The notes under the pieces were generated by a model. It was given only the letters and a program-made list of their open reading frames with translations. It did not search any database and was not told the origin of the DNA. From NCBI RefSeq assembly GCF_900177775.1, contig NZ_FXWH01000001.1, forward strand, positions 1,674,001 to 1,738,000: a DNA stretch of 64,000 nucleotides, given 5' to 3'. The stretch is from Pseudidiomarina planktonica. GTDB taxonomy: Bacteria > Pseudomonadota > Gammaproteobacteria > Enterobacterales > Alteromonadaceae. Positions 15,701-24,400 of this stretch are shown piece after piece. The position numbers and the translations under genes were made by a program. Positions within the stretch are counted from its first letter, which is position 1. Every line of letters starts with the position of its first letter.

Positions 15701-17362
15701 CTACAGCCTGAAATCAAATTGTACCGTACGACCATTGTCCAGCCATTCCAGGTTTTCAGTTAACCCTGATAGTAACGCTAAACCACGCCCATGCGGCCGC
15801 TCTTCCTGCATATCTTTCTGGGATAGAGTACTCACGCCCGCACCAGAATCAGATACTTTCACCTGAACCAATCGCTCAGTGGGATCAAACTTCAACTTAA
15901 TAGTTATCTGGCCATCGGTTAAATCATCCAACCGGCTAGTACGTTGCTGATAATAGGTTTCAAAACCTTGCGGGTCGTCTTTCAAGCCTGAGTCTAAGCC
16001 TAATAAACCATGCTCGAGCGCGTTATTGTATGCTTCCGAAAGCAACATAAATATGGTGCCGCGCTGGCTTTTTAATGCCGGTAGCTGACTCAATGAACTC
16101 ATTAATATAGTGACTGGCTCAGCATGCTTCATTTCATGCACACCAATAGTTACTTTCAGTTCAAACGGTAGTCTAACCCCGGCTTCTGCCACCGCAGGCT
16201 CATGCTTAACTGCGGTTGGCTTACAACGCAAAATGGCCAGTGATACGTCATCTTCCAGTTCCTTATTACCACGAAAAGCCTCCAGCTCCGCCACCACTTG
16301 TGACAGCTTTATGCGCCCCTGACTGGTGAGTAAATCTTCAAACCGCTGCTCGCCGAAAATCTGTTGTTGCTGATTGCGTAACTCCGTAACGCCATCGGAG
16401 TGCAGCACAATACGCTGCTGACTATGGCAGTTATGGGTAGTAACCCGACTATCGAAGTCATCACCGGGTAAAATACCTAACGCCATATGCTGTGCTGGTA
16501 AGCGCTCGCAGATTTCACCATCGTCGTTGATTAAAAAGGCTGTGGGCATGCCCCCATTCCAATAGGTTAAGCGCTCACCCGAGGCGGATATTTCCAACAT
16601 AATAGCTGCACAAAACATGTCGTCAGGCAGTAACTGCAACAAGCGTTGATTAAATTCAGTCACCATTTCGGCCACTGACACGCCCCGATCGGCCATGGTG
16701 AAAAATGCCTGTGACAAAGGCAACGCGCCCGTTGCCGGAGCCAGCCCGTGCCCGGTAAAATCGCCCAGCAACACATATAAATTTCCCAGTGGCCCTGCCG
16801 CGACTAGGCAGAGGTCGCCACTGAACATACTGGCCGGTATTAAGTGGGTTTCGATATGCTCATAGTCCAAATAATTACGGCTCAGCGCATTGCGAAATAT
16901 ATGCTCAACGATTCGATGTTCGCGGTCTATTCGAGCTGAATGCCACGCCAGAGATCTATTCTTTTCGTGCACACTCTGACTGAGCTCGCGCACCCGCTGA
17001 TGGGCTCTTAACTTGGCTTGCAGTACGACTGGCTCAAAGGGTACCGGTAAGAAGTCGTCACCGCCAACACTCAGGCAACGTAGCAGCGATTCCTGTTCAT
17101 CCAATGCGGTAATAAAGATGATAGGTAGGTGTACAGTTCCGGCTAGTTCTTTTAGCTTAGGAGCTAGTTCATAGCCGGTAATGCCGGGCATCATAATGTC
17201 CAGCAAAACAATATCCGGTGCCCACTCAGAAAAGTTATTCAGGGCGTCATGACCATCGGCAGCGAGCACCACGTCGTACCCAAAATCATTCAGCAAACTC
17301 GCCAATAATAAACGGTTTGCCGGCTGATCATCAACAATAAGAACTCGCATAGCCACGGACAT
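15701..17362 (-). CDS. Receiver - PP2C phosphatase - HATPase protein (HsbR-like)
   Basis: 553 residues with three parts. A receiver domain (residues ~5-120) has the phosphoacceptor D55 in 'IVLLDIMMPG'. A SpoIIE-type PP2C phosphatase follows (~175-385, metal Asp in 'FSGDLCLV' and 'LLGDFTGHG'). A GHKL ATPase/anti-sigma kinase closes the protein (~410-553, 'LLSEAYNNALEHG', 'VSDSGAGVS', 'HGRGLALL'). The layout matches HsbR of Pseudomonas, which phosphorylates and dephosphorylates the STAS protein HsbA. The STAS partner is directly upstream, the two genes sharing TGATG, so ATG 17362 is preferred over the ATG at 17350. The downstream target is not known here. Confidence 0.85.
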   Translation of the reverse strand: MSVAMRVLIVDDQPANRLLLASLLNDFGYDVVLAADGHDALNNFSEWAPDIVLLDIMMPGITGYELAPKLKELAGTVHLPIIFITALDEQESLLRCLSVGGDDFLPVPFEPVVLQAKLRAHQRVRELSQSVHEKNRSLAWHSARIDREHRIVEHIFRNALSRNYLDYEHIETHLIPASMFSGDLCLVAAGPLGNLYVLLGDFTGHGLAPATGALPLSQAFFTMADRGVSVAEMVTEFNQRLLQLLPDDMFCAAIMLEISASGERLTYWNGGMPTAFLINDDGEICERLPAQHMALGILPGDDFDSRVTTHNCHSQQRIVLHSDGVTELRNQQQQIFGEQRFEDLLTSQGRIKLSQVVAELEAFRGNKELEDDVSLAILRCKPTAVKHEPAVAEAGVRLPFELKVTIGVHEMKHAEPVTILMSSLSQLPALKSQRGTIFMLLSEAYNNALEHGLLGLDSGLKDDPQGFETYYQQRTSRLDDLTDGQITIKLKFDPTERLVQVKVSDSGAGVSTLSQKDMQEERPHGRGLALLSGLTENLEWLDNGRTVQFDFRL

Positions 17363-17667
17363 CAGGCAATAACAAACATTTTATCGAATCTGGAAATATC
17401 AAGAATACGTCTAATTTCAGGGCGACAGTTCACCAGTTGAATTTCTTTCACTCGATCGCCCAGTGACTTACGCATATTAAGTAACATACCCAAAGCCGAG
17501 CTATCTAAATACTCAGTCTCGCGAAGATCTATTACCACTGTTGGCTGCTGTTCATTGATTTCAGCGTAGGCCTGCCGAAACTCCTGCACCAGACTAAAAT
17601 CGAATTTGCCTTTAATAGTAATAATTAATTGTTTGCCGTCATTCGAAAATTGTCTATGTAAGCTCAT
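17362..17667 (-). CDS. STAS-domain anti-anti-sigma factor (HsbA-like)
   Basis: 101 residues, a single STAS domain. The switch serine lies in 'EYLDSSALGMLLNMRKSLGD' (S56 or S57). Length equals that of Pseudomonas HsbA, which shuttles between FlgM and a diguanylate cyclase to balance flagella and biofilm. Here it is the first gene of a two-gene unit with its probable kinase/phosphatase. No flgM homologue or hsbD-like cyclase lies next to it, so the output partner is open. Confidence 0.85.
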   Translation of the reverse strand: MSLHRQFSNDGKQLIITIKGKFDFSLVQEFRQAYAEINEQQPTVVIDLRETEYLDSSALGMLLNMRKSLGDRVKEIQLVNCRPEIRRILDISRFDKMFVIA

Positions 17668-18680: not shown

Positions 18681-19967
18681 TTACTCAGGTTTTTGCTGGT
18701 ACTTGTTATACAGCTGACGGTGGCGGTTATTTAAATCAACCTCACTGCCATCAATAAACATGTGCACAATGTCCTGGCCTAAGTGGTCCATTACATCGCC
18801 TTCTGAGATGATTAAAGATGCCTTTTTGCCCACTTCAAGTGAACCAATTGACTCTTCAACACCCAGAATTTTCGCTGCATTATAAGTAATTGCTGCTAAC
18901 GCCTGGTCTTTATCTAAACCGTAAGCAACAGCGTTACCTGCGGCGAAAGCCAGGTTACGAATATCCCAGAAACCAGGGTAAGCAATAGCAAACTCAACAC
19001 CGGCGGCTGCAAGTGTTGCTGGCGTAGTGAAAGCCTGGTCATAAGCCTCGTCGTTTCGAGCTGGTAACCCATAAGGCGCACCAAAAACTACCGGAACACC
19101 TTCGGCAGCTAGCTTGTCAGCCATACGCCAAGAGTCCCGCGCACCTACTAACACCATGTCGAAACCATACTCACGGCGCAATTCCAGCGCTTGTTCCATC
19201 TGGCGTTTGTCGTCAGCATGCACAAACAGCTTTTTCGACCCATCGAATAAGCCAGTCATAGCTTCCCAACGAATGTCTTTACCACGTAAGGTACCGGCCT
19301 GCTTACCGTCATAATAAGCTTTGGCATCGGTAATAGCGCGTTCCAACAGTTTCAACGCTTCCGCGTTAGCTTTGCGTTGCTCGGCCGGGCTACGACGCTC
19401 CCACCAGGTGTCGATAACAGACGCTCGTGGCCAGTTTACATGCACGCCAACATTGAGCTTTTCCTGGGCATCTTCCCAGGTCCAGCCGTCGGTTTGCAGC
19501 AAGCTCGACTGACCCATGATTAAATCGCCCTGAGGAACGATTTGCGCATGAGTAATACCGTTGAAGCGAATGGTTGGTGTTACTTCAGAGTCCGGATTGT
19601 AGGCAATGTGCCCACTCACTTCCGGGTGAATAGCACCAACTTCTTCCTGGTCATCGGAGGCGCGAACGGCACCAATTTCCACCAACCCTAAGGTGGTGTC
19701 CAGCGCTACTAGCCCCGGATACACATGTTTACCCGTTGCATCAATCACACGGGCGTTATCCGGGGTGGTCAGGTCAGTGCCGATAGCGGTAATACGGCCA
19801 TCAGTAAAAACCAAATCAGTATCGCTCAACACACCCTGAGTAATAGTGTGAACGGTCGCATCTTTAATCAGTATTGGCTGCTTCTGTGGTTCACCGGGAA
19901 CCATGTCATGGGCCAGCACGGCACCACTAACTAAAGTCGCAGCAGCAAGAGTTACAATCGATTTCAT
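18681..19967 (-). CDS. Exported amidohydrolase-like protein lacking the HxH metal motif
   Basis: 428 residues. The signal peptide is 'MKSIVTLAAATLVSGAVLA'. The fold pattern of a metal-dependent amidohydrolase is clear: an N-terminal beta-sandwich ('ATVHTITQGVLSDTDLVFTD'), 'GKHVYPGLVALDTTLG', and a C-terminal 'AAITYNAAKILGVEESIGSL' with 'EVGKKASLIISEGD'. However, where active members have PGxxDxHxH this protein has PGLVALDTTLGL, so the metal-binding HxH is missing. It resembles the N-terminal half of the protein encoded just upstream. Start ATG 19967 has a GGAGGA site and overlaps the upstream stop (TAATG), so the two are coupled. Confidence 0.85.
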   Translation of the reverse strand: MKSIVTLAAATLVSGAVLAHDMVPGEPQKQPILIKDATVHTITQGVLSDTDLVFTDGRITAIGTDLTTPDNARVIDATGKHVYPGLVALDTTLGLVEIGAVRASDDQEEVGAIHPEVSGHIAYNPDSEVTPTIRFNGITHAQIVPQGDLIMGQSSLLQTDGWTWEDAQEKLNVGVHVNWPRASVIDTWWERRSPAEQRKANAEALKLLERAITDAKAYYDGKQAGTLRGKDIRWEAMTGLFDGSKKLFVHADDKRQMEQALELRREYGFDMVLVGARDSWRMADKLAAEGVPVVFGAPYGLPARNDEAYDQAFTTPATLAAAGVEFAIAYPGFWDIRNLAFAAGNAVAYGLDKDQALAAITYNAAKILGVEESIGSLEVGKKASLIISEGDVMDHLGQDIVHMFIDGSEVDLNNRHRQLYNKYQQKPE

Positions 19968-22900
19968 TAGTGCTGTCCTCCATGGGTATGTGCCGTAAAC
20001 TGATCCAGCCAAACATCATGCTGATCTTCACAGTGCCAGGTCGGCTGTTGTTGTTTATAACCATTGGTTGCACCGTCACGCGCGCTTTCGCCAGCGTTCA
20101 GTACTTTTTGAATCAAGGCTTGCTTCTCAGTATCAAGCGCAGCACGCATCGCTAAATCTTCTTCGCGATCGAAGTATTTACGTGCGTTGATCCAGGTTTG
20201 TTCTGCTCGAGCATAAGCACTCAACGGATGATCATTCCAAATCACAAAGTCAGCCTGTTTACCGGGCTTAATGCTGCCCACATACTGGTCTACTTTCAGC
20301 TGTTTCGCTGGATTCAGAGTAATCATTTTGATTGCTTCTTCTTCGGACATACCGCAGTAACGCACTGATTTAGCTGCTTCAGTATTTAAGCGGCGCTGCA
20401 GATCATTACTGTCCGAGTTAATGCTGGTAAGCACACCTTTTTTCGCCATTAAACAGGCGTTGTAAGGAATCGCATCATATACCTCGAACTTGAATCCCCA
20501 CCAGTCAGCGAAGGTAGAAGCACCAGCGCCGTGTTTCGCCATTTCAGTTGCTACTTTGTAGCCTTCCAGAATGTGCGTAAAGGTGGTCAGGGTAAAATCA
20601 AACTCTTCGGCTAGCTTAAGTAGCATCAGAATTTCTGACTGAACATACGAGTGCGCGTGAACAAAACGTTCGCTGCGAAGTATTTCCAGCATGCTTTCCA
20701 AGCGATAGTCAGGACGCGGTGCCGCAGTGCGCTGACGTTCTGAACGACTCAGATCGTTGTAGTCATCCAACTGACGCCCGTACTCAAGCGCTGCCTGGAA
20801 GCCGTCACGTAGAATGGTTTCAACACCCAAACGTGATTGCGGGTAGCGAACTACATAGTCAGAACCCCAGTTGCTTTGCTTCACGTTTTCACCCAAAGCA
20901 AACTTGATGGTGGCCGGCGCCGCATCAAATTTCATCAGGTCAGCATCAGCGCCCCAACGAAGCTTAATCACTTGTCCTTTACCACCAGCCGGGTTGGCTG
21001 AACCGTGTAGTAACTGGGCCATGGTAGTACCACCGGCCAACGAGCGATAAATATGAATATCGTCCGGGTTCACTACGTCGCCGATATGAACTTCAGCAAC
21101 AATGGCTTCAGAACCTTCGTTAACACCTTGCGAAATCGCGATGTGTGAGTGTTCATCAATAATACCCGGAGTAACGTGCTTACCTTCGGCATCAATGACG
21201 GTATAACCAGACGGCGTTGATAACCCACTGCCGACTTCCACAAACTCACCGTTACGAATCAGAATGTCGGCATTTTCTAAAGTGCCTTCTTCATCTGCTG
21301 TCCAAACAGTCGCATTTTTAATATGCACGTTTTGACGTGCTGGCAGCTCAGTGCGGCCGTAAGCAACATTCGGATAGGTTAACTTACTGATATAAGAATC
21401 CGCTCGCGCAGGTTCCTTGCTCTCAGCTGTAACAGCTTCGGTGCGCGTTGCGGTAATCATCAACTCGCGTCCGTCAGGTGCTACTGCCATACCAGATAAG
21501 CTGTCTTCACTCACTTGACGTAACTTCATACGCCAGCTGCCAGCTAAATCAGCAATGGTTGCGTCAACCACAAACTCGACCGTGTCTTCGTTGTGACTGG
21601 CGTGATGCAATTTACTCTCTGCATCGGCAACGCTCAGCGTACCTTGCAAGTTTTTGCCCGGCTTAAGTTCCAGCTCAACATCTTGATTAGCAACATTTAA
21701 GCTATAAGATCCGGCAAAGTCCGCAGGATGCATTGGTTGCAGCTCAACTTCTTCACCCTGCAGCCACACTGACACAATCTCGCCATCATTAAACAAATCG
21801 CCGTTGGCAATAACAAAGTCAGCCATGTAGCCCTGAGCAAGACGTCCCGCCTTGTTATCAACACCACTAATTTGCGCTGGTACCGTCGTTAACGCCGCTA
21901 GCGCTTTGTCTTTATCAAGACCATGTGCCACCGCTTTACGCAGGTTTGGCCAGAAATCTTCTTTCTTTTCTAACTGCGCCAGAGTAAAGGCAAAATCAAC
22001 CCCAGCTGAAGCCAATGCCGCGGCATTACCCGGAGCACGCTCCCAATGGCGAAGGTTACTTAACTGCACATCCAAATGACCATCAACGCTGCCAACTTCT
22101 GGTGCAGCCGGAAAGTCTAATGGCAGAATAAGTTTGGAACCGGTATTTTTCACCGCGTCCAAACGAGCGTATTCAAAGCCTGAACCAATAAATACACGTG
22201 GTACTGAGAAATCACTTAATACTTCGTTCGCACGTAACAGTGACAGCTCATCGTCAATCGCAAACACCATACCGGTGTTTTCAATATCGGTTAGTTCAGC
22301 CAAAGCCGCGTTGTATTCAACCGGCCCGGTTACCGCTTGCTTGCCATAAGCTTCTTCATACCAGTTGGCATCAGCAAGCGTTTGGCGAACCAAGGCAATG
22401 CTGCCCATCAAAGACGACGGGTATTGCTGCTGTGAACTGCCTTTATCGAAAGAACCAAAATGACGTGCTTTCGGGTTATAAACCACATCGTTCGGAAGCT
22501 TATCAGCCAGTGAAACCGTAGCTGCCTGGCCTTGGAAAATACCATCCAAGCGTGCGGTTTGAACAGCAGTGAAGCCGTGCGAGATAAAGTCTTTCGCAGC
22601 GCTGGCATCTGGTTTAAACGAATCAATCCAATCGCGCTCAGAGTGAATGGCAGCATTACCTGCATTACCACCTTCACGTTCATTTGAGTAAATCGGTGGT
22701 GAGCTGCGAAAACCGCCCGAGCTTCTTTCTTCTGGTGCAGGAACACCATAGCTCGCATAAGCATCAATAAAGCCGGGATAAATAGTGTGCCCGCTGGCAT
22801 CCACTAACCTCGCACCGGCGGGGGCTTCGTTGTTGCGGTTCAATGCCCGAACTTTGCCGTTTTCAATAACCAGTGTTGCATTAGTTAACTGCTTACCTGG

Positions 22901-23059
22901 TTCCAGCACTATGGTTGCGTTCTGAAACGCAACCAGGCTTGGTGTCTTGTCATGGATTCCCTGCACTGTAGTGGTTTGGTCAGCCATTGCTGTTTGAGCC
23001 AAACCAAGTGCTGCAAGAACCGCCAGACTAACACCGGTCAGATGGTTACTCCGGTTCAT
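19967..23059 (-). CDS. Large exported double amidohydrolase, only the C-terminal half with metal ligands
   Basis: 1030 residues with a signal peptide ending near ...ALGLAQTAMA. The N-terminal amidohydrolase module (~30-440) has 'GHTIYPGFIDAYASYG' in place of the metal-binding HxH segment. A linker of beta-rich sequence follows (~450-590). The C-terminal module (~590-1000) has 'GKHVTPGIIDEHSHIA' (HxH), later His in 'RFVHAHSYVQSE' and 'TTFTHILEG', and Asp in 'TSINSDSNDLQRR', so it looks catalytically complete. The substrate is probably a peptide or cyclic amide (inference from family). Start ATG 23059 lies 5 nt after GGGGGA. The first gene of a coupled pair. Confidence 0.87.
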   Translation of the reverse strand: MNRSNHLTGVSLAVLAALGLAQTAMADQTTTVQGIHDKTPSLVAFQNATIVLEPGKQLTNATLVIENGKVRALNRNNEAPAGARLVDASGHTIYPGFIDAYASYGVPAPEERSSGGFRSSPPIYSNEREGGNAGNAAIHSERDWIDSFKPDASAAKDFISHGFTAVQTARLDGIFQGQAATVSLADKLPNDVVYNPKARHFGSFDKGSSQQQYPSSLMGSIALVRQTLADANWYEEAYGKQAVTGPVEYNAALAELTDIENTGMVFAIDDELSLLRANEVLSDFSVPRVFIGSGFEYARLDAVKNTGSKLILPLDFPAAPEVGSVDGHLDVQLSNLRHWERAPGNAAALASAGVDFAFTLAQLEKKEDFWPNLRKAVAHGLDKDKALAALTTVPAQISGVDNKAGRLAQGYMADFVIANGDLFNDGEIVSVWLQGEEVELQPMHPADFAGSYSLNVANQDVELELKPGKNLQGTLSVADAESKLHHASHNEDTVEFVVDATIADLAGSWRMKLRQVSEDSLSGMAVAPDGRELMITATRTEAVTAESKEPARADSYISKLTYPNVAYGRTELPARQNVHIKNATVWTADEEGTLENADILIRNGEFVEVGSGLSTPSGYTVIDAEGKHVTPGIIDEHSHIAISQGVNEGSEAIVAEVHIGDVVNPDDIHIYRSLAGGTTMAQLLHGSANPAGGKGQVIKLRWGADADLMKFDAAPATIKFALGENVKQSNWGSDYVVRYPQSRLGVETILRDGFQAALEYGRQLDDYNDLSRSERQRTAAPRPDYRLESMLEILRSERFVHAHSYVQSEILMLLKLAEEFDFTLTTFTHILEGYKVATEMAKHGAGASTFADWWGFKFEVYDAIPYNACLMAKKGVLTSINSDSNDLQRRLNTEAAKSVRYCGMSEEEAIKMITLNPAKQLKVDQYVGSIKPGKQADFVIWNDHPLSAYARAEQTWINARKYFDREEDLAMRAALDTEKQALIQKVLNAGESARDGATNGYKQQQPTWHCEDQHDVWLDQFTAHTHGGQH

Positions 23060-23241
23060 CAACTTCCCCCTGATTATTATAATAAATATGCGTTTTACCT
23101 AGCTTCGTACTATGGTAATAGCGGATTACTGATCGATCTTAACAGCTTCACCATAAACTGTTCGTGAGTAAATTTACAATGCACGAACCGATGAAAGGCT
23201 GTTTGGTAACGGTGAAAAGCAAAACAACAAGGGATACTACT

Positions 23242-23718
23242 ATGAAAAAATTGCGAAAGGGTTATCTTGCTGCATTAGCTATTCTGGGTAGCTGCGGCGC
23301 GTTGATGTCGACAGCAATTGCAGACAGTCCATTTACCGACGCAAAAGAAGCGGTTGAATACCGTAAAGACGCCCTGTCACTGATGCACGCAAACTTTGCT
23401 GTAATGGGCGATATGGTGAAAGGCGATATCGAATACGATCCTGATATTTTTCAGCAACGGGCAAATGATTTTGCCAAATTAGCAGGAATTCCGTGGGCTG
23501 GTTTCACTGTGGAAGGTGCGATGCCAGGTGAAGACACCGACGCCCTGCCCGCTATTTGGGACAACTGGGATGACTTCCAGGAGCGCGCCAATGATCTGCA
23601 AACCGGCGCTGATAAGTTGCTTGCAGTAAGTGCCAATCGCAGTCTGGACAGCTCAGGTGACGCACTGAAAGACGTTGCTCGTACCTGCAAAGGCTGTCAC
23701 GACGACTATCGTGATTAA
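23242..23718 (+). CDS. Cytochrome c' (periplasmic c-type cytochrome)
   Basis: 158 residues. The signal peptide 'MKKLRKGYLAALAILGSCGA' continues to ...MSTAIA. The haem site is at the extreme C-terminus, CKGCH followed by DDYRD, as expected for the four-helix cytochrome c' family. Start ATG 23242 is preceded by AAGGGA; the longer open frame from 23164 would bury the signal peptide. Convergent with a cytochrome b561 gene 43 nt away, a common pairing for small periplasmic electron transfer. Physiological partner unknown; family members bind NO or serve as electron carriers. Confidence 0.88.
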   Translation: MKKLRKGYLAALAILGSCGALMSTAIADSPFTDAKEAVEYRKDALSLMHANFAVMGDMVKGDIEYDPDIFQQRANDFAKLAGIPWAGFTVEGAMPGEDTDALPAIWDNWDDFQERANDLQTGADKLLAVSANRSLDSSGDALKDVARTCKGCHDDYRD

Positions 23719-23738
23719 TAGTGACTATTGATAATTGA

Positions 23739-23761
23739 GGTGGCTGTTACGAACAGCCACC
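23739..23761. other. Hairpin between convergent cytochrome genes
   Basis: A perfect 10-bp stem (GGTGGCTGTT/AACAGCCACC) with a 3-nt loop lies between the cytochrome c' and b561 stop codons. Neither strand has a U-tract after it, so it is not a canonical intrinsic terminator. It could stabilise 3' ends. The same GTGGCTGTT sequence recurs at once as the last codons of b561. Confidence 0.5.
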
Positions 23762-24400
23762 CTATAACAGCCACCACAACGCGCCGGTTAACACCACAGC
23801 TACAATTAAAGCGATAATACCGTGGCGCAGTTCTGGTGCCGGTTTATGGCTCTCAACGTAACCATGCAGCATCGCCTCTAGTAATTTAACTCCCCGCCAG
23901 CGGTACACCAAAATCGCTAACACGTGTAAACCAACCGCCGCTAAAATAAAGTTAAAATTCAGCTTATGCAGATCGGTAATTAAATCGCCGGTATCTGCAG
24001 CAACCAAAGCGTGCAGCGGACCATCAAAGAAAATGTCGTCGCTGGCAAACAAGCCACTACTAAATTGCATTAATACCAACAACAGCAGCACTAAAACGAA
24101 CCAACCGCCGGCCGGATTATGCGTACGCCCGGGCTGATACTGGCCGTGCCGCAACTCGCGAAAATGTTGGAATGCGTGTTGCGGATGTCGAACAAACTGA
24201 CTGAATCTTGCCGACTCACTGCCCCAAATACCCCAGCCAATACGAGTGATCAACAAGCTGCCCAAGAGCACCGCTAATTGTTGGTGCCGTTCCATGTATC
24301 CTTCTTCCGCCGTCCACCACAAAGCCGGTATAAGAACCACCATTAGCCAGTGATAAATGCGAATGAAACTGTCCCAGATTTTAATGCGCGTTGATGCCAC
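23762..24400 (-). CDS. Cytochrome b561 family protein
   Basis: 212 residues, an inner-membrane di-haem cytochrome b. It has four main hydrophobic helices, about residues 15-30, 40-60, 102-120 and 150-170, plus a C-terminal helix near 192-212. Candidate haem His residues lie in 'FIRIYHWLMV', 'HQQLAVLLGS', 'DLHKLNFNFILAAVGLHVLA'. The family transfers electrons between the quinone pool and small periplasmic cytochromes. Here the convergent neighbour is a cytochrome c', a plausible partner (inference). Confidence 0.88.
   Translation of the reverse strand: MASTRIKIWDSFIRIYHWLMVVLIPALWWTAEEGYMERHQQLAVLLGSLLITRIGWGIWGSESARFSQFVRHPQHAFQHFRELRHGQYQPGRTHNPAGGWFVLVLLLLVLMQFSSGLFASDDIFFDGPLHALVAADTGDLITDLHKLNFNFILAAVGLHVLAILVYRWRGVKLLEAMLHGYVESHKPAPELRHGIIALIVAVVLTGALWWLL

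Follow-up and report, generated by a model that had tools for sequence, protein, structure and literature searches.

The window analyzed here, a 64,000-nucleotide stretch of the Pseudidiomarina planktonica genome, carries two overlapping genes that we read, with a probability of roughly 0.75, as encoding an exported heteromeric metal-dependent hydrolase in which one active site is accompanied by homologous pseudoenzyme subunits. The C-terminal module of the larger protein (C) would be the sole hydrolase and hold the only metal center, its metal binding, activity, and export all being predicted. The smaller protein (S) and, in this lineage, the N-terminal module of the larger one (N) appear to be pseudoenzymes. 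Both most likely pack against C where an ancestral homo-oligomer would have had additional copies of one barrel, and stabilize C and/or shape the entry of substrate.

Organization of the gene pair

Both genes lie on the minus strand. The larger, P0001 (19967-23059), encodes 1030 residues that run from a Sec-type signal peptide (residues 1-27, 22979-23059; cleavage placed by eye between AMA and DQ) through N (residues ∼40-445, 21725-22942), an amidohydrolase barrel without metal ligands, and a beta-rich linking segment (residues ∼450-560, 21380-21712) to the catalytic C module (residues ∼574-966, 20162-21340). The metal site of C is intact and includes the HxH motif H637-S638-H639 (21143-21151). 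The smaller gene, P0002 (18681-19967), encodes the 428 residues of S, a Sec-type signal peptide (residues 1-19, 19911-19967; cleavage placed by eye between VLA and HD) followed by one amidohydrolase barrel without a metal site. These open reading frames lie where an earlier note on this DNA had placed them, and its description of two amidohydrolase modules in P0001 and one in P0002 was borne out. The signal peptides that it gave to both proteins also look right, with N-termini that appear Sec-type by eye.

The same note had the genes overlapping as TAATG, which we find on the coding strand as GGAGGACAGCACTAATG, the P0001 stop codon (19967-19969) having its last base in common with the P0002 start. 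A Shine-Dalgarno-like GGAGGA stands 8 nt before the P0002 ATG and doubles as Gly-Gly codons at the end of the P0001 tail. With translation coupled in this way, or with the genes fused as in other loci, the subunits would be made in a fixed ratio.

The tail of P0001 (19970-20161) carries a conserved WHC(E/D)D motif and a His-rich end. W1008 and C1010 of the motif are invariant in 24 rows and nearly so in 30, and this tail is absent from both P0003 (the C-S fusion) and P0005 (the N-C-S chain), described below.

Metal ligands of the three modules

We assigned six ligands to the C module of P0001 (H637, H639, K719, H803, H829, and D883) by aligning it with other amidohydrolases and by general features of that superfamily; no solved structure of P0001 or P0002 enters the assignment. 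H803 was taken as the strand-5 ligand because it is invariant; the neighboring H801 is kept in 137 of 154 modules of the C type or its stand-alone form (C2). An HxH motif, a strand-4 Lys, two His, and an Asp make up the ligand set of binuclear amidohydrolases, and we take K719 to be the counterpart of the carboxylated bridging Lys of other amidohydrolase families. Since its ligand set is of the binuclear type, C probably hydrolyzes an amide, lactam, or related bond, and the target is likely to be a small molecule or peptide.

The motifs quoted in the earlier note for N (FIDAYASYG, at P0001 97), C (IIDEHSHIA, at P0001 633), and S (LVALDTT, at P0002 86) are all present, and alignment of the three modules with their relatives agrees with its claim that only C retains HxH together with the later His and Asp. 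HxH has indeed been lost from N and S, but the extent of the loss had been understated; the strand-4 Lys, strand-6 His, and strand-8 Asp are gone as well. At the strand-5 position a single His survives in the S protein of the window (H250, within FVHADD). Among relatives of the same order, HxH, the second strand-5 His, the strand-6 His, and the strand-8 Asp are found in every C-type module, and the module alignment gave the full ligand set in no N or S module.

The division held across the modules of 158 loci, where the six-ligand set is present in 157/157 catalytic versus 0/207 partner modules. The catalytic modules comprise 51/51 C modules of the N-C or C-S type, 103/103 stand-alone C2 modules, and 3/3 modules of a divergent type (X1); the partners lacking the set are 152 S, 52 N, and 3 X2 modules (0/152, 0/52, and 0/3). 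The strand-4 Lys by itself separates them almost as cleanly, being kept in 157/157 catalytic modules, 1/152 S, 0/52 N, and 0/3 X2. As for the five non-Lys ligands, two survive in 5 of the 152 S modules, one in 51, and none in 96, and in N one survives in 2 of 52 and none in 50. In a single S (L172) the HxH site reads HGH, with the rest of the set absent. These counts leave out the two S pieces of L102, which has a frame break, and take the split S of L144 as one. Judged from these alignments, N and S are amidohydrolases by fold and sequence and are not this type of enzyme by active site.

It could be argued that the empty modules are enzymes after all, with an active site that is metal independent or differently ligated. 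S does have near-invariant residues of its own, namely, E97 (146/152 S versus 0/154 C), P302 (152/152 versus 0/154), Y423 (139/152 versus 0/154), and R134 (149/152 versus 41/154). E97 falls in the loop that immediately follows the missing HxH, where D106 (P0002 numbering) is a second conserved acidic residue, found in 146/152 S and common in C too (107/154). The S proteins that partner stand-alone C2 further show a conserved His near strand 8 in 90% of 102 rows. This reading is nevertheless unlikely. Nothing conserved in N or S stands in for the ligand set as a whole, our search for alternative ligands found no replacement set in N and S of the window's type, and the S group to which the window's S belongs does not conserve the His near strand 8. 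Through these acidic residues and, in the other group, that His, S may still bind some ion.

Co-occurrence of C and S

An S match was obtained in 40 of 59 genomes, comprising the window's own and 58 relatives. A catalytic gene lies directly upstream of S in all 39 relatives fetched (39/39), one of which (L046) has a contig that ends inside S, and all 25 relatives from the window's genus (25/25) have the N-C S form. The survey of co-occurrence proposed in the earlier note gave the same picture at a larger scale. When named genome contigs were searched with C, S was directly downstream on the same strand in 80/80 loci, these being the best 80 of at least 580 confirmed stretches, and one of them (L102) has a frame break in S. 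A C profile run on a sample of the phylum matched 78 of 397 genomes at an E value of ≤1e-10, 70 of these at 1e-77 or better, and S adjoins C in 40/40 loci fetched, which were chosen by hand from the 70 strong matches. About one-sixth of the sampled genomes of the window's phylum, the Pseudomonadota as judged from named relatives (70/397), thus carry the catalytic module strongly matched, and the loci that we checked also carry the dead partner.

We also looked for independent occurrence from the side of S. The S profile matched 22 of 370 genomes in a sample of the class, 20 of them strongly (9.8e-91 or better), and all 20 strong matches have an adjacent second amidohydrolase match (20/20). This neighbor was confirmed as C in 14 of the 20 by locus fetch, C profile, or fusion search, and in G117, G183, G220, G282, G286, and G362 it is presumably C. 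Partial matches near 1e-11 in G247 and G358 were read as other amidohydrolases and rejected as S. The samples cover the window's class and phylum plus named genome contigs; the C-query set (80), the phylum set (40), and the relatives and class sets overlap in some genomes, and some genomes were counted twice via two collections (for example, L039/L112, L089/L223, L125/L249, and L128/L256, whose contigs are equal in length).

The pair also occurs in one metagenome locus named as Acidobacteria (L145). Some S proteins (L144:11321-12679, L247, and L248) have an insertion of ∼20 to 30 residues that splits the profile match.

Genes flanking the pair

Downstream of the pair in the window lies a gene for an anti-sigma-antagonist-like protein (17362-17667), and upstream are genes for cytochrome c-like and cytochrome b561-like proteins (23164-24400), all named by eye. 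These flanking genes recur beside the pair in ∼24 to 26 loci, almost all from the window's genus. We rejected the neighborhood as a clue to the substrate: the clusters of neighbors are confined to the window's genus or a few related genera (the largest with 27 loci), and no neighbor genes common to distant genera were seen, so no pathway was assigned. A larger amidohydrolase-like open reading frame is found elsewhere in the genome of the window (L071:4285-7482), and others (∼1065 to 1234 residues overall) lie no more than 10 kb from the pair in one locus of Arenimonas and several of Lysobacter; loci with such large frames near the pair are L100, L116, L137, L140, L142, and L143.

Rearrangement of the modules

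The same modules are divided among genes in several ways. In the 158 loci we found the architectures C S (97), N-C S (38), N C-S (11), and N-C-S (1), with the divergent X1 X2 pair in 3. Four loci with overlong overlapping frames (L105, L115, L116, and L137) were read as C S, two more C S loci have an S that is broken (L102) or split (L144), one N-C S locus is cut by the contig end (L046), and L213 shows N followed by a C-S match that runs to the contig end with no closed open reading frame. In the N C-S form, a separate gene for N plus the beta segment overlaps the gene for the C-S fusion.

One family yielded near-full-length matches to the C-S fusion in 16 genomes (that of the query included), the other 15 at 58 to 74% identity, so that an error in one assembly does not explain the fusion. 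P0005, the N-C-S chain, comes from one genome (L203, 1454 residues); Pro/Ala-rich linkers connect its modules at both joints and no signal peptide lies inside it, which argues against a sequencing slip. That the three modules are variously split and joined is strong, if indirect, evidence for one complex, and the fusions, the shared operons, and the co-occurrence suggest that C, S, and N form it. The natural fusions are ready constructs for structure determination and assay.

The X1 X2 pair repeats the division, X1 having all ligands and X2 none (L160:6980-9498, L162:7084-9701, and L165:7090-9746). The three genomes concerned also hold the main pair, which was fetched in two (L161 and L163) and is indicated by a C profile match in the third (G769).

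A lipobox-like motif is present in 58/103 stand-alone C2 proteins versus 0/39 N-C proteins, as scored with a crude pattern on unedited frame starts. Given this lipobox-like Cys in many C2 proteins, the complex may be located at the membrane in some species, and its anchoring may differ by lineage.

Fold and structural models

Both proteins match the Pfam family Amidohydro_1 (PF01979), P0001 with 95.9 bits and P0002 with 38.5 bits against a cutoff of 25. Such generic matches mask the missing metal site in one of the two. None of the NCBIfam matches listed (25 of 71 for P0001 and 25 of 58 for P0002) reached an equivalog cutoff; examples are XaaProDiPepCaul (86.8 bits versus 500) and hutI (86.4 versus 298.15). 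Among solved structures, C found 3ooq by sequence with an E value of 2.3e-48 and 168.2 bits (next structure, 34.5) and S found it with 3.8e-31 and 111.7 bits (next structure, 32). The same search with N gave short local matches only, among the 60 matches listed. At the level of predicted fold, the model of N (residues 41-442) superposes on 3ooq with a Z score of 39.3 (356 residues aligned; root mean square deviation [RMSD], 3.4; next Z score, 22.1), and the S half of the C-S fusion model does so with a Z score of 45.9 (362 aligned; RMSD, 2.2). C and S by sequence and N by predicted fold thus place all three modules nearest to one solved family.

The model of P0001 had a pLDDT of 73.5 and a pTM of 0.70, with N mostly near 90 and residues 638-745 of C below 50, and such a moderate model does not establish how N packs against C. 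For the natural C-S fusion P0003 (922 residues), AlphaFold2 with 31 alignment rows gave a pLDDT of 85.8 and a pTM of 0.87, and predicts packing of C and S against each other. We take this pTM for a two-barrel fusion as pointing to a defined mutual placement of C and S, with the caution that a single tethered chain may favor contact. Of the alignments that include the fusion, A7 was used after a check of its rows with local MAFFT, in which S rows still have 62 to 64 columns on the C half. Alignments A5 and A6 were left out because, judged by their conserved columns, C rows had apparently been matched to the S half of that protein, and a set with trimmed S rows was worse.

A further alternative is that N and S bind substrate or act in targeting within the same pathway as C and form no stable complex with it. 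The genes are separate in most loci, plain C S accounting for 97 of the 158, and the barrel pocket of N and S could have retained ligand binding. We regard this as quite unlikely, however, given the C-S and N-C-S fusions with their conserved order and the confident two-barrel model of the fusion. The suggestion in the earlier note of a complex with noncatalytic copies has gained comparative support, which comes from the adjacency of S and C, the fusions, the pTM of 0.87, and the purifying selection described below, and a heteromeric hydrolase with one active site remains the reading that we prefer. If it is correct, either gene expressed alone may give no activity. A more specific version is possible, and we offer it tentatively: the pair could belong to a secreted three-barrel machine in which one live and two dead barrels of the same kind make up a composite chamber for substrate, the dead ones serve only recognition or gating (S being marked by its E97/P302/Y423 signature), and the different gene partitions all yield one fixed complex.

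Selection and evolutionary history

Selection on N and S is strongly purifying. Three pairs among 22 loci passed the requirement that the dS of C be <0.9, and the third was saturated in N. In the other two, close pairs from the same genus, dN/dS was 0.021 and 0.027 for N (the dS of N being 1.09 in the second pair), 0.011 and 0.016 for C, and 0.021 and 0.019 for S. Constraint is weakest in the beta segment, with values of 0.118 and 0.085 in the same two pairs. Distances for C, S, and N are correlated (0.84 to 0.99), in part through shared species history.

In a tree of 103 rows, C, C2, S, N, X1, and X2 each fall on one side of a branch, with a support of 94 for S and 99 or 100 for the other classes; the tree comes from a quick search without bootstrap and is midpoint rooted, with 33 of 100 inner branches undecided and 16 rows that depart from the usual composition. 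Within S there are two clades, sorted by partner into N-C/C-S (18 rows) and C2 (21 rows). The tree fits an early single loss of the metal site in S, long joint evolution of the pair, and N as a further dead lineage, in an order that is uncertain.

That N and S are relaxed duplicates heading toward pseudogenes we reject as highly improbable: the partner modules diverge somewhat faster than C (mean distance over 152 loci, 0.64 for S versus 0.50 for C), but dN/dS for N and S is ∼0.02 in the two close pairs and well below 1 in the window's genus, S adjoins C in every locus of the sets of 80 and 40, and the tree places all S in one group and all N in another.

Comparison with known systems

Homologous subunits that pair a live with a dead copy occur in other folds, and the amidohydrolases themselves include known inactive members. 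In what was accessible of the open-licence literature, we found no description of a widespread exported pair of live and dead amidohydrolases with an extra dead module and shuffled fusions, and we found no assayed relative of the pair. The closest solved relative of its modules, 3ooq, is an "amidohydrolase" from Thermotoga maritima for which no function is named. It differs in being a single-module chain; in the alignment with C, its HxH, Lys, two His, and Asp are all retained.

CRMP and dihydropyrimidinase-related proteins, whose names appear among the PDB matches of C, have the amidohydrolase fold and are regarded as nonenzymatic; they are eukaryotic and cytosolic and, unlike S and N, are not known to be paired with an exported catalytic homologue. 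The M16 proteases are unrelated to amidohydrolases in fold and chemistry. Their architecture, with a live and a dead half, nonetheless resembles that of the pair: they reportedly consist of two halves that typically have the active-site residues in one and are both needed (PMC12731061).

A likeness within the superfamily is found with the aspartate transcarbamoylase of Pseudomonas aeruginosa, which requires an inactive dihydroorotase homologue in order to be active (PMC7053772). This pseudo-dihydroorotase resembles S and N in being an inactive chain of the amidohydrolase superfamily that accompanies an enzyme. The partner enzyme in that case belongs to another family, the transcarbamoylases, whereas in the pair studied here the dead and live chains are homologous and have signal peptides.
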